A DNA stretch of 64,000 nt, taken from the NCBI GenBank assembly GCA_029194535.1, contig JARFXR010000001.1, positions 1,682,721-1,746,720 of the forward strand. The letters are read 5' to 3'. Positions within the stretch are counted from its first letter, which is position 1; each line of letters opens with the position of its first letter. The position numbers were made by a program, and so were the translations under genes. This document shows positions 6,601 through 48,787 of the stretch, piece after piece. The DNA comes from Nitrospira sp. Lineage in GTDB: Bacteria > Nitrospirota > Nitrospiria > Nitrospirales > Nitrospiraceae. The notes under the pieces were generated by a model, which searched no databases, was not told the DNA's origin, and worked only from the letters and a program-made list of their open reading frames with translations.

Positions 6601-8121
6601 ATGAACGGAAACATCCTCATGCTGTGTTCCGTCGGATTGTTGGTATCGACCGGATGCGTCAGTTCGGGAACCCATGATCAGACACTGGCTGAGCTGGATC
6701 AAGCGCGCAAGGCTTCGGCAAAAACGACGGCCGACTTCGATGCTTTCAAGAAGGAATCCGACGCGAAGATCTCGGCGCTGGAGGCGGACAAGACGAAGCT
6801 ATCGGACGAACTGCTTCACTCGCAAAGCGCTGGTTCTCAGCTCAAGCGAGATCTCGATCAAACGAAGGGCAGCCTGGATTCGACCCTGGCCAGCCGGAGC
6901 GAGCTTGAAAACGATGTCAGGAAGATCCGCGCAGAAACGACGGGGATGGAGCGGTTGAACGGGGAGCTGCGGAGGGAACGGGATCTGCTGCAGGGCAAGC
7001 TCAACGATCTGCAGCATGACCATGACGCGACCAAGCAGGATCTGGAGAACAAGCTGAAGGCCGAGCAGGAGACCGTTGCGTCGCTGCAACGCGACAAAGA
7101 TATGCTGATCGCACGGGCCACGGGGGCCACCGATGAACTGGCCAAGGCCCAGAAACACATGGGAGAGTTGGAAGTGGACGCCGCGCGCGCCAAGGATCTG
7201 GACAAGCAGCTTGCCGATCTGCAGAAGCGCGCAGGCGATCTGGAAGGCCAGGCGAGCCGCGCCAAGGATCTGGATCAACAGCTTGCCGATCTGCAGAAGC
7301 GCGCAGGCGATCTGGAAGGCCAGGCGAGCCGTGTCAAGGATCTGGACAAGCAGCTCTCCGATCTGCAAAAGCACGCGGGCGATCTAGAAAGCCAGGCGAG
7401 CCGCGCGAAGGATCTGGATCAACAGCTTGCCGACCTGCAGAAGCGTGCAGGTGATTTGGAAGGTCAGGCCGGCCGAGCCAAGGATCTTGAACAACGGTTG
7501 TCCGAACGGGATATTGAGGTGGGGCGGCTGACGCAGGGCGGTGAAGCCTTGGCTGCGGAAAAGGATGCGCTGGCCGCGGAAAAGGCAAGACTCGAGAAGG
7601 AACGGGTCGCGAAGGAAGCAGAAATTCAGCGGCTGACGAAGACGCAGGAGGATTTGACCAAGTCCCTGCAGGCGCAAATCGACAGGGGCGACATCAAGAT
7701 CAAACAAGTCCGCGACCGGTTGACCATCAACATGGTCGAAAAAGTGCTGTTCAATTCTGGTCAGGCGCAGGTGAAGCCAGAGGGATTGAAGGTGTTGAAG
7801 CAGGTGGCGGACGTGTTGAAGGACGTCCACGATAAGGAGATCAGGATTGAAGGCCATACGGACAACGTCCGGATCGGCGGAAAGCTCAAGGAGAAGTTCC
7901 CGACCAATTGGGAGCTGTCCACGGCTCGGGCGACCAACGTCGTCCGCTATTTCATCGAGCAGGGTGGGGTCGGCGCGGAAAACTTCGAGGCCGTCGGTTT
8001 TGCGGATACCAGGCCGGTGGCGGACAATGCCGCTGAGGAAGGGCGCACGGAAAACCGTCGGATCGAGATCGTGCTCTTCCCGAAAAACCTGAGCGCGATC
8101 GCCGGCGATATCAAACCCTAG
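6601..8121 (+). CDS. OmpA-family lipoprotein with internal 24-residue coiled-coil repeats
   Basis: This is a 506-residue outer-membrane lipoprotein. It has a type II signal peptide with lipobox STGC (Cys19), a long alpha-helical coiled coil (about 25-365), and a C-terminal OmpA/MotB-like peptidoglycan-binding domain (about 375-495; motifs EGHTDNVRI, NWELSTARA and ENRRIEIVL). In the middle, a 24-residue unit (RAKDLDQQLADLQKRAGDLE plus GQAS) is repeated in tandem about four times and visible as 72-bp DNA repeats. It likely tethers the outer membrane to peptidoglycan, with the coiled coil spanning the periplasm. The start is ATG after GGGAGGAG. The TAG stop lies within the end of a dispersed repeat, so the native C-terminus may have been altered by insertion. 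Confidence 0.9.
   Translation: MNGNILMLCSVGLLVSTGCVSSGTHDQTLAELDQARKASAKTTADFDAFKKESDAKISALEADKTKLSDELLHSQSAGSQLKRDLDQTKGSLDSTLASRSELENDVRKIRAETTGMERLNGELRRERDLLQGKLNDLQHDHDATKQDLENKLKAEQETVASLQRDKDMLIARATGATDELAKAQKHMGELEVDAARAKDLDKQLADLQKRAGDLEGQASRAKDLDQQLADLQKRAGDLEGQASRVKDLDKQLSDLQKHAGDLESQASRAKDLDQQLADLQKRAGDLEGQAGRAKDLEQRLSERDIEVGRLTQGGEALAAEKDALAAEKARLEKERVAKEAEIQRLTKTQEDLTKSLQAQIDRGDIKIKQVRDRLTINMVEKVLFNSGQAQVKPEGLKVLKQVADVLKDVHDKEIRIEGHTDNVRIGGKLKEKFPTNWELSTARATNVVRYFIEQGGVGAENFEAVGFADTRPVADNAAEEGRTENRRIEIVLFPKNLSAIAGDIKP
7186..7490 (+). repeat. 72-bp in-frame tandem repeats
   Basis: About four near-identical 72-bp units encode the 24-residue coiled-coil period within the OmpA-family lipoprotein. 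Units differ by a few substitutions (Lys/Gln, Ala/Val, Arg/His), so they are recent but not perfect copies. They are a likely site of length variation by slippage or recombination. Confidence 0.85.
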
Positions 8122-8272
8122 TGTTGCGTCCCAGAAGTTCGCTCGTGGTGAGCCCTTCGACTGGCTCAGGACAGGCCTGTCGAACCATGACCCGAACTCC
8201 TTGAACGTGGGCGTCCTTCCACCGGCTCAGGGCGAACGGAGTATTAGCGGAACTTACGGGACACTTCACTGG
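8118..8272 (-). repeat. Dispersed ~155-bp MITE-like repeat A, copy 1
   Basis: The reverse complement matches copies at 36903-37054 and 47276-47430 over the whole length, including GTGTCCCGTAAG near one end, two internal CCTGAGCC(A/G)GTCGAAGG blocks, GTTCGACAGGCCTGTC, and CTGGGACGCAACACTAG at the other end. Its outer CTAG contains the stop codon of the OmpA gene. Confidence 0.88.
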
Positions 8273-8443: not shown

Positions 8444-8817
8444 AATATTCCAGCTACGTGGGAGTTCTGAGTCGGAGTTCTTGGTAGTGGCTCAGTTGGC
8501 CATCAGAACCACTGAGGTGTGTCATTCCCGCGGAAGCGGAAATCCAGTCAAGGCCGTCTCATCAGTATGAAGTCTTGATCGAGGAGTGGATGCCAGCTGG
8601 AGCCTGCCCTCGACACCGATCGAGGGCGGGCATGACGCAAGAGGAAACTGACCCACTACGCCGCTTCTTCCCTGTGGCTCTTCTAACTGAGCCAATTTCT
8701 TACGCCCTTCAGTGAAATCCGCTTCACCCACGACAGTGTATCGCCGATAGGCGAATTCTGCCTTCTGCTGTCCTTCCTAAATCCCTGGCGAATTGTCGAA
8801 GAGACCTGATGTGAGGA
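8444..8817. other. Intergenic stretch holding repeat B and a possible gene remnant
   Basis: Apart from repeat B (8519-8661) there is only a short leftward open stretch (about 8660-8790). It encodes a plausible-looking peptide (FAYRRYTVVGEADFTEGRKK and following residues) that begins after a stop codon and runs into the repeat. It could be the tail of a gene disrupted by the repeat. Confidence 0.35.
8519..8661 (+). repeat. Dispersed ~143-bp repeat B, copy 1
   Basis: It matches 37102-37244 in the opposite orientation. It begins with the palindrome-like GTCATTCCCGCGGAAGCGG and holds an inner inverted repeat CCCTCGAC-ACC-GATCGAGGG. It resembles the short palindromic intergenic repeats found in many proteobacterial and Nitrospira genomes. 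Confidence 0.85.
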
Positions 8818-36902: not shown

Positions 36903-37054
36903 GCTAGTGTGGTGTCCCGTAAGGTCCGAAAATATCCGTTCGCCCTGAGCCGGTCGAAGGGCGCCCACGTTCAATGAGTTTCGTTCATGGTTCGACAGGC
37001 CTGTCCTGAGCCAGTCGAAGGGCTCACCACGAACGACCTTCTGGGGCGCAACAC
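36903..37054 (+). repeat. Dispersed ~155-bp MITE-like repeat A, copy 2
   Basis: GCTAGTGTGGTGTCCCGTAA begins the copy and GGGGCGCAACAC ends it. It aligns over the whole length with copies 1 and 3. The right terminus has lost the CTAG (CACGAG instead), and no gene abuts it. Confidence 0.9.
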
Positions 37055-37101
37055 GAGGCGCAAGCGGTCGAACCGGGCGACGTTCAGATCGTCGCATCGA
37101 A

Positions 37102-37244
37102 GCGTAATTGGTCAGTATCCGCTCGCGTCATGCTCGCCCTCGATCGGTGTCGAGGGCAGGCTCCAGCGGGCATCCACTGCTCGATCATGACTCACTGCTG
37201 AGGAGCAGGTCTTGACGGGATTCCCGCTTCCGCGGGAATGACAC
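37102..37244 (-). repeat. Dispersed ~143-bp repeat B, copy 2
   Basis: The reverse complement matches 8519-8661 closely, including GTGTCATTCCCGCGGAAGCG, GGAGCCTGCCCTCGACACCG and the inner palindrome. Again it lies beside a copy of repeat A. Confidence 0.88.
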
Positions 37245-37372
37245 GCTTCAGGTATGAAGAATCCAGGATTCCGCAGCTGGATTTGGCCTGTGGTGTTGGA
37301 AGGGCGATGCGTGCTCCAGTCTGGATATCAGACGATCAGCCCCTGATCGCGTGGTCATGTCGATGATCACGT

Positions 37373-47275: not shown

Positions 47276-47430
47276 CTAGTGTGGTGTCCTTTAAGTTCCT
47301 GTAATCATCCGTTCACCCTGAGCCGGTCGAAGGGCGCACACGTTCAAAGAGTTTTGTTCATGGTTCGACAGGCCTGTCCTGAGCCAGTCGAAGGGCCCAC
47401 CACGAACGAACCTCTGGGACGCAACACTAG
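47276..47430 (+). repeat. Dispersed ~155-bp MITE-like repeat A, copy 3
   Basis: This copy has complete ends: CTAGTGT at 47276-47282 and its reverse complement ACACTAG at 47424-47430. The interior matches copies 1 and 2. The CTA at 47427-47429 is the TAG stop of the adjoining alcohol dehydrogenase gene. Confidence 0.9.
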
Positions 47431-48482
47431 GCGTTCAGAGACGCCATATCGATCGAGAAGCGATACTTCACGTCGGACTTGAGCAGTCTGTCGTACGCTT
47501 CGTTCACCCGCTGGATGGGGATGACTTCCACGTCGGCGGTAATGTGGTGGGCGGCGCAAAAATCGAGCATCTCTTGCGTTTCCGAAACGCCGCCGATGGG
47601 AGAACCGGAGAGGCTGCGGCGTCCGAATATGACGCTGAAAGCGACAACGGCAAGGGGTTTCTCCGGCGCGCCGACCAGGGTGATGGTGCCGTCGCGTCGG
47701 AGCAGCTCGATGTACGCGTTGATGTCATGGTCGGCGGGCAGGGTGTCGAGGATGAAGTCGAAGCTGCCGATCTGCTTTTTCATTTCGTCGGCGTTGCGGG
47801 AGATGACGACCTCGCGGGCGCCGAGACGGAGCGCATCGTCCTTCTTGTTGGGCGACGTGGTGAAGACCACCACATGGGCTCCGAACGCGTGAGCGAACTT
47901 CACGGCCATATGACCCAACCCTCCGAGCCCGACCACCCCGATCTTCTTGCCCTTGGTCACGCCCCAATGGCGCATCGGCGAGTACGTGGTGATACCGGCG
48001 CAGAGGAGCGGCGCGGTTTCGGCGAGATCGAGGTTGGGCGGGACGCGCAGGACAAATCGTTGGTCGACGACCATGCTCTCAGAGTAGCCGCCATAGGTGA
48101 CGCCGCCGAGGTGCTTGTCCGTCGAATTGTAGGTCAGAGTCATATTCGCACAGAATTGCTCAAGACCGGCTCGGCACTCCTGGCAGGTCTTGTCGGAATC
48201 GACCATGCAGCCGACGGCGGCCAGATCGCCGGGCTTGAATGTCGTGACGGCAGAACCGACTCTTGTGACACGGCCGACGATCTCATGGCCTGGGACGCAA
48301 GGGTAAACGGTCGGCGCCGCGCGTTTCCACTCGTTGCGGACCTGGTGGAGATCCGAGTGGCAGATCCCGCAGTAGAGGATGTCGATCTGGACGTCCTGTT
48401 CATCGGGATCGCGCCGCAAGATTGTGGTGGCGGCCAAGGAGGATGCCGCGCCGGCCGCTCCGTATGCCTTCGCGTGATACAT
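47427..48482 (-). CDS. Zinc-dependent NAD(P) alcohol dehydrogenase (YahK/CAD-like)
   Basis: This 351-residue medium-chain dehydrogenase has catalytic zinc ligands CGICHSD and GHE, a structural zinc cluster (CMVDSDKTCQECRAGLEQFC), the CAGITTYSPMRHW motif and a Rossmann GLGGLGHMAVKFA. The set matches YahK/cinnamyl-type aldehyde reductases. ATG 48482 fits the family N-terminus. The TAG stop is part of the terminal repeat of element A copy 3, so the last residues may have been set by the insertion. Confidence 0.94.
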   Translation of the reverse strand: MYHAKAYGAAGAASSLAATTILRRDPDEQDVQIDILYCGICHSDLHQVRNEWKRAAPTVYPCVPGHEIVGRVTRVGSAVTTFKPGDLAAVGCMVDSDKTCQECRAGLEQFCANMTLTYNSTDKHLGGVTYGGYSESMVVDQRFVLRVPPNLDLAETAPLLCAGITTYSPMRHWGVTKGKKIGVVGLGGLGHMAVKFAHAFGAHVVVFTTSPNKKDDALRLGAREVVISRNADEMKKQIGSFDFILDTLPADHDINAYIELLRRDGTITLVGAPEKPLAVVAFSVIFGRRSLSGSPIGGVSETQEMLDFCAAHHITADVEVIPIQRVNEAYDRLLKSDVKYRFSIDMASLNA

Positions 48483-48787
48483 ACCGTGCCAGTATGCTCT
48501 TGCGGCAGTTCGAGAGGCAAGATCATCTCGAGCCAACCGGATCCTTCATATGGACTGCGTCATGCACGCTGTGCGTCACCCACGTCTCGGATGATAAGCG
48601 ACGGCCGCGATTACGCAGAATGGAGACGACCGGCGTTTGTAAAGAAGGGTACGAGGGTAGCAAAGGACCGGCTGCGTAAGCTTAAATAATCCGGCCGACG
48701 CACAGGTCCGAATCCGGCGAGTAGGCGAACGGCCGTCGGCCTATAGTCATGTGCGATGGAGGCCGACGGATGTGTGAGACGTGAGAC
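48483..48787. other. Intergenic stretch between divergent genes
   Basis: The 305 bases should hold divergent promoters for alcohol dehydrogenase and the Ada-AlkA gene. I see no clear sigma-70 pair or operator; a TATAGT is present near 48742. No gene is supported. Confidence 0.45.

Follow-up and report, generated by a model that had tools for sequence, protein, structure and literature searches.

Stop codons at the ends of short IS630-type elements in a Nitrospira genome are accounted for by insertion at CTAG

The window analysed here, a stretch of 64,000 nucleotides from a Nitrospira sp. contig, contains a short repeat which in two places ends within the TAG stop codon of a neighbouring gene. 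This raises the question whether such an element supplies the stops of the genes beside it, is directed to them, or meets them by way of its target site. The features concerned are the following.

6601..8121, plus strand: gene of an OmpA-domain protein (506 aa ORF; PF00691)
8118..8272, minus strand: MITE copy 1, 155 bp, inverted relative to copies 2 and 3
8118..8121, no strand: CTAG target/terminal site of copy 1, containing the OmpA stop TAG at 8119-8121
36904..37057, plus strand: MITE copy 2, 154 bp, intergenic, with divergent flanking genes
47276..47430, plus strand: MITE copy 3, 155 bp, the right end of which holds the ADH stop TAG
47427..47430, no strand: CTAG target/terminal site of copy 3, containing the ADH stop TAG at 47429-47427 (minus strand)
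47427..48536, minus strand: gene of a zinc-type alcohol/aldehyde dehydrogenase (ADH; PF08240, PF00107)

The three copies, 154-155 bp long, were 87-93% identical and had the ends CTAGTGTnGnGTCC in common. The similarity was far above chance, the repeat giving 29 matches in its own genome, down to an E value of 3e-76. Sequence and genome matches thus bore out the earlier note on this DNA in describing three copies of about 155 bp with common ends; its coordinates were right for copies 1 and 3, while copy 2, which it had placed at 36903-37054, was off by 1-3 bases. Copy 3 has CTAG on both sides. Copy 1 has CTAG on the left and a mutated site, CTGG, on the right; its right-type end points toward the OmpA gene and includes the OmpA stop. 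In copy 2 the left CTAG is kept and the right one is mutated to CGAG, and this copy has no contact with any stop. The best NCBIfam match of the ADH was the aldehyde reductase Ahr model, with a score under the cut-off of that model. The OmpA gene carries at 7150-7509 a 72-bp in-frame tandem repeat, which gives a 24-aa coiled-coil-like unit (AKDLDQQLADLQKRAGDLEGQ).

In the whole genome (3.98 Mb, 5 contigs) approx. 22 recognisable copies were found, with a consensus of 132 bp. The repeat is multicopy, 132-155 bp long and devoid of a transposase gene; in several genome copies 23 bp are inserted into the core, and truncation or another repeat has disrupted a few. It was absent from the six congeneric species searched, and the family and the order gave scattered weaker matches only. 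Of 395 genomes of the phylum, 13 matched an 18-base end pattern exactly, the own genome being the richest. A literature search with the sequence of the repeat returned nothing useful. Two further repeats were observed in the neighbourhood of the copies. One, of about 150 bp and unrelated to the MITE, is present in the window at 8512-8661 and 37102-37251 (86% alike, inverted; BLAST gave 52 matches within the own genome) and lies less than 250 bp from MITE copy 1, behind a tRNA-Ser, and 44 bp from copy 2. The other, a short one (AACCAACCGTCTCCTTCGAGAGCCTCAGGACGAACGGTTGGTTT), is nested in or adjoins several MITE copies of the own genome (L015, L009, L025).

The repeat has imperfect terminal inverted repeats, CTAGTGTgGtGTCCCgtAAGTTC and CTAGTGTtGcGTCCCagAAGTTC. 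The end pattern TAGTGTnGnGTCCCnnAAGTTC was found in at least 120 stretches, from Acidobacteria, Chloroflexi, Proteobacteria, Nitrospira, Gemmatimonadota and others, and for most of those among the matches listed an inverted partner end lies 60-380 bp away, the DNA between being non-coding. In two elements, L158 (1156 bp) and L201 (1151 bp), the same ends surround ORFs of 363 aa which are full-length IS630 transposases (NF033545, E about 1e-78; DDE_3). The window's own family has such members as well: in G007 an intact element of 1162 bp has the same ends and an IS630 transposase (L207), and in G023 the transposase gene of a 1162-bp element with these ends is split (L209). Both elements have the left/right asymmetry of the MITE ends, with GTGTCC on one side and TGCGTCC on the other. 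A search of the own genome gave no IS630 or DDE_3 match. Since its ends are common to MITEs and to elements of 1.15-1.16 kb with IS630 transposases, the repeat can be identified by sequence as a non-autonomous IS630-type MITE (Tc1/mariner superfamily) whose partner IS is now missing from the genome; the earlier label of a MITE-like element was right. It would have been mobilised in trans by an IS630 since lost from the genome. Equal flanks were seen in the element pairs L161/L274, L131/L286 and L150/L284, which include elements of the window-family members G312 and G286.

The insertion sites were mostly CTAG, as the earlier note had proposed: among the matches listed, CTAG stands outside both ends in 45 paired elements. 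This agrees with the target preference known for IS630 itself, the TA of CTAG (Tenzen and Ohtsubo 1991, as cited in PMC2170065). A TA duplication and a 4-bp duplication look identical at CTAG sites, and the informative elements number four, those with a non-C (A, G or T) first end and a clean CTAG partner; all 4 keep the terminal G. The terminal G would hence be part of the element, which favours a 2-bp TA duplication over a 4-bp one. In the mechanism we propose, the IS630 transposase would paste the MITE in trans into the TA of a CTAG, and the TA would be duplicated. With G as the outermost base, C-TA-G would become C-TA-[G...C]-TA-G, one CTAG before the insertion giving two after it. An in-frame TAG would remain TAG, a TAA would turn into TAG and the protein would be unaffected; since CTAG is rebuilt on both sides, insertion into a stop should be silent for the protein. 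The coincidence of element ends and stops would then be the product of target preference and the survival of harmless insertions.

Six of the 22 copies in the own genome touch a stop, those of the genes of ADH, OmpA, a 472-aa membrane protein, a ThDP enzyme, a 468-aa protein and a GlcG-like protein (the ThDP enzyme and the GlcG-like protein were assigned by eye). Empty sites, i.e. genes without the element, were available in the sister genomes G001-G006 for ADH, OmpA, the membrane protein (L006), the ThDP enzyme and the GlcG-like protein; a search of the genus gave no orthologue of the 468-aa protein (L025). In G001, the closest sister and free of the element, the ADH gene ends with ...ACC TAG and that of the ThDP enzyme with ...CCC TAG, both at the unchanged codon position, and the membrane protein has TAG at the same codon. 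The OmpA stop of G001 is also at the same codon and is TGA, not TAG. The GlcG-like gene with the MITE has TAA as its present stop, and its G003 orthologue has TAG at the same place. Among more distant sisters, the stops of OmpA in G003 and of the two ADH relatives next closest after G001 were shifted by at most one codon. In the membrane-protein gene, the own flanks joined across the element could be aligned with G001 and G002, with a gap of at most one base at the site.

In the element-free orthologues the stop sits at the corresponding codon or at most one codon away; the stops thus predate the insertion, and the element does not supply them. The earlier note had claimed that it does, and had named stops already present at empty sites as the finding that would count against this; in G001 the ADH and ThDP enzyme genes already end in CTAG, and the claim is given up. 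Its suggestion that insertion trims gene ends harmlessly holds as to harmlessness, while trimming is not the rule, the orthologue stops lying within one codon; loss of a longer C-terminus on insertion was not seen in the own-genome cases with orthologues. One gene of a different kind was noted, that of a MeaB-like GTPase (assigned by eye; L019 1553-2387), the last codons of which come from an old degraded MITE copy. Its orthologues have other, variable tails, and here a copy does alter the end of a protein. It was also observed that the right-type, TTGCGTCC-like end is turned toward the gene in 5 of the 6 stop-coincident copies of the own genome, a small sample.

CTAG is rare, and in bacteria it often holds the TAG stop of a gene. 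For the background, 464 kb sampled from the own genome, the window included, were run through a simple dicodon gene finder; 116 of 283 CTAG were gene-interior, 46 at stops and 121 intergenic. Approx. 28% of the CTAG outside coding interiors are therefore at a stop, as against 27% of the copies (6/22), and in the own genome no excess of stops was found (odds ratio 0.96, Fisher p 1.0, with TIR-like sites removed). The preference for CTAG alone explains the coincidence in the own genome.

Across phyla the stops (called stops) were touched by 33 of the 77 elements with both ends found among the matches listed, as compared with 55 of 233 CTAG of the background set, which leaves out coding interiors; these figures are limited by the quality of the gene finder, by low counts and by relatedness among the genomes. 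The Mantel-Haenszel odds ratio over GC bins was 2.55 (p 0.0015), obtained with a search pattern that admitted only ends with the TAG intact, and purifying selection would keep such a TAG at stops; it was 1.94 (p 0.02) when CTAG-dense loci were dropped, the background ranging over 24-28%. Tandem regions alone (p 0.13) and convergent regions alone (p 0.07) did not reach significance. In divergent (promoter) regions the elements were rarer than the background sites, 7/63 versus 44/190. Counts per end (39/146 versus 64/264, no excess) were set aside in favour of counts per element, because the two ends share one target and the end is the wrong unit. With an end pattern free of TAG, applied to the phylum so as to escape this selection bias, about 8 of 13 usable elements were at stops; these are few, and their genomes partly overlap the TAG-pattern set. 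Thus the proposal that the element targets stop codons fails in the own genome (6/22 versus 28% expected), while a mild cross-phylum excess remains.

This excess may be explained by selection against promoter insertions. More broadly, insertion or survival could be biased to gene 3' ends, with insertions directly behind a stop being neutral and those into promoters or between coupled genes being lost. Such a bias would be an addition to the preferred explanation, and we give it somewhat less than an even chance: the cross-phylum odds ratio, which persists without the CTAG-dense loci, and the scarcity of elements in divergent regions speak for it, while the own genome shows none of it, neither tandem nor convergent regions carry it by themselves, and the pattern required an intact TAG. 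It is improbable that the transposases of this IS630 group go further and favour gene-end CTAG beyond abundance and selection, as a built-in safe-site targeting at TAG stops across phyla. A transposase that recognises a stop-codon or gene-end context, e.g. via termination or transcript ends, is very unlikely, since the majority of the elements lie between genes and away from stops and the own-genome excess is lacking; the mild cross-phylum excess is all that points toward it.

Alternatively, the element could make new stops by entering a Tyr codon (TAT or TAC) near the end of a gene, its terminal G giving TAG and the protein being trimmed. The opposite flank implies a former TAC or TAT in at most 3 of the 33 stop-coincident elements (L088, L136 and perhaps L138), all of them in other genomes, but a pre-existing TAG or TAA in 30 of the 33, and in the own-genome cases with orthologues the stop position is unchanged, or at most one codon off in distant sisters. 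We regard the making of new stops as highly improbable. The repeat might also be a structural RNA or terminator element which is retained by virtue of a role at the 3' ends of genes. A long hairpin is predicted for its transcript (z -5.4 on one strand and -3.5 on the other), but a hairpin is expected from inverted ends, no Rfam match was obtained (the window gave two tRNAs only), the copies occur in both orientations and at varied distances from genes, and the six congeners are without it; such a role can hardly be credited. The account preferred here, an IS630-type MITE the CTAG preference of which, together with the survival of harmless insertions, leads to the coincidence of ends and stops, is given a probability of about 0.92.

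The IS630 family, including IS630 of Shigella sonnei and ISY100, shares with the MITE the TA duplication and the preference for TA in CTAG; the window elements differ in being 132-155 bp long and without a transposase, and IS630 is missing from the own genome. RUP of Streptococcus pneumoniae, a 107-bp derivative of IS630-Spn1, is likewise described as short and non-coding, with IS630-type ends at TA (PMC2229807, the part consulted). This likeness is one of description, and RUP shares the genome with its IS630, unlike the window MITE; a link between CTAG and stops, as seen here, is not reported for RUP in that part of the source. As for the BOX repeats of S. pneumoniae, the stop codon of the preceding gene is encoded by the repeat in 36 cases, truncation being without strong evidence there (PMC3049150). 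BOX differs from the window MITE in its boxA-B-C structure and in its proposed mobiliser, ISSpn2. MITEPsy1 of Pseudomonas syringae, of about 100 bp, inserts at CTAG or YTAA, the former as in the window MITE (PMC3189936), but is IS5-related, makes a 4-bp duplication and has other ends. The coincidence with stops is an ordinary effect of the known target preference of IS630, and BOX provides a published precedent.

An element specific for CTAG which has G as its first base rebuilds the stop into which it inserts, and transposons of this kind only seem to end genes. In annotation such element ends should not be taken as gene truncations. Silent landing sites make up about a quarter of the CTAG outside coding interiors, and the pattern TAGTGTnGnGTCCCnnAAGTTC is a marker of a very widespread IS630/MITE group.
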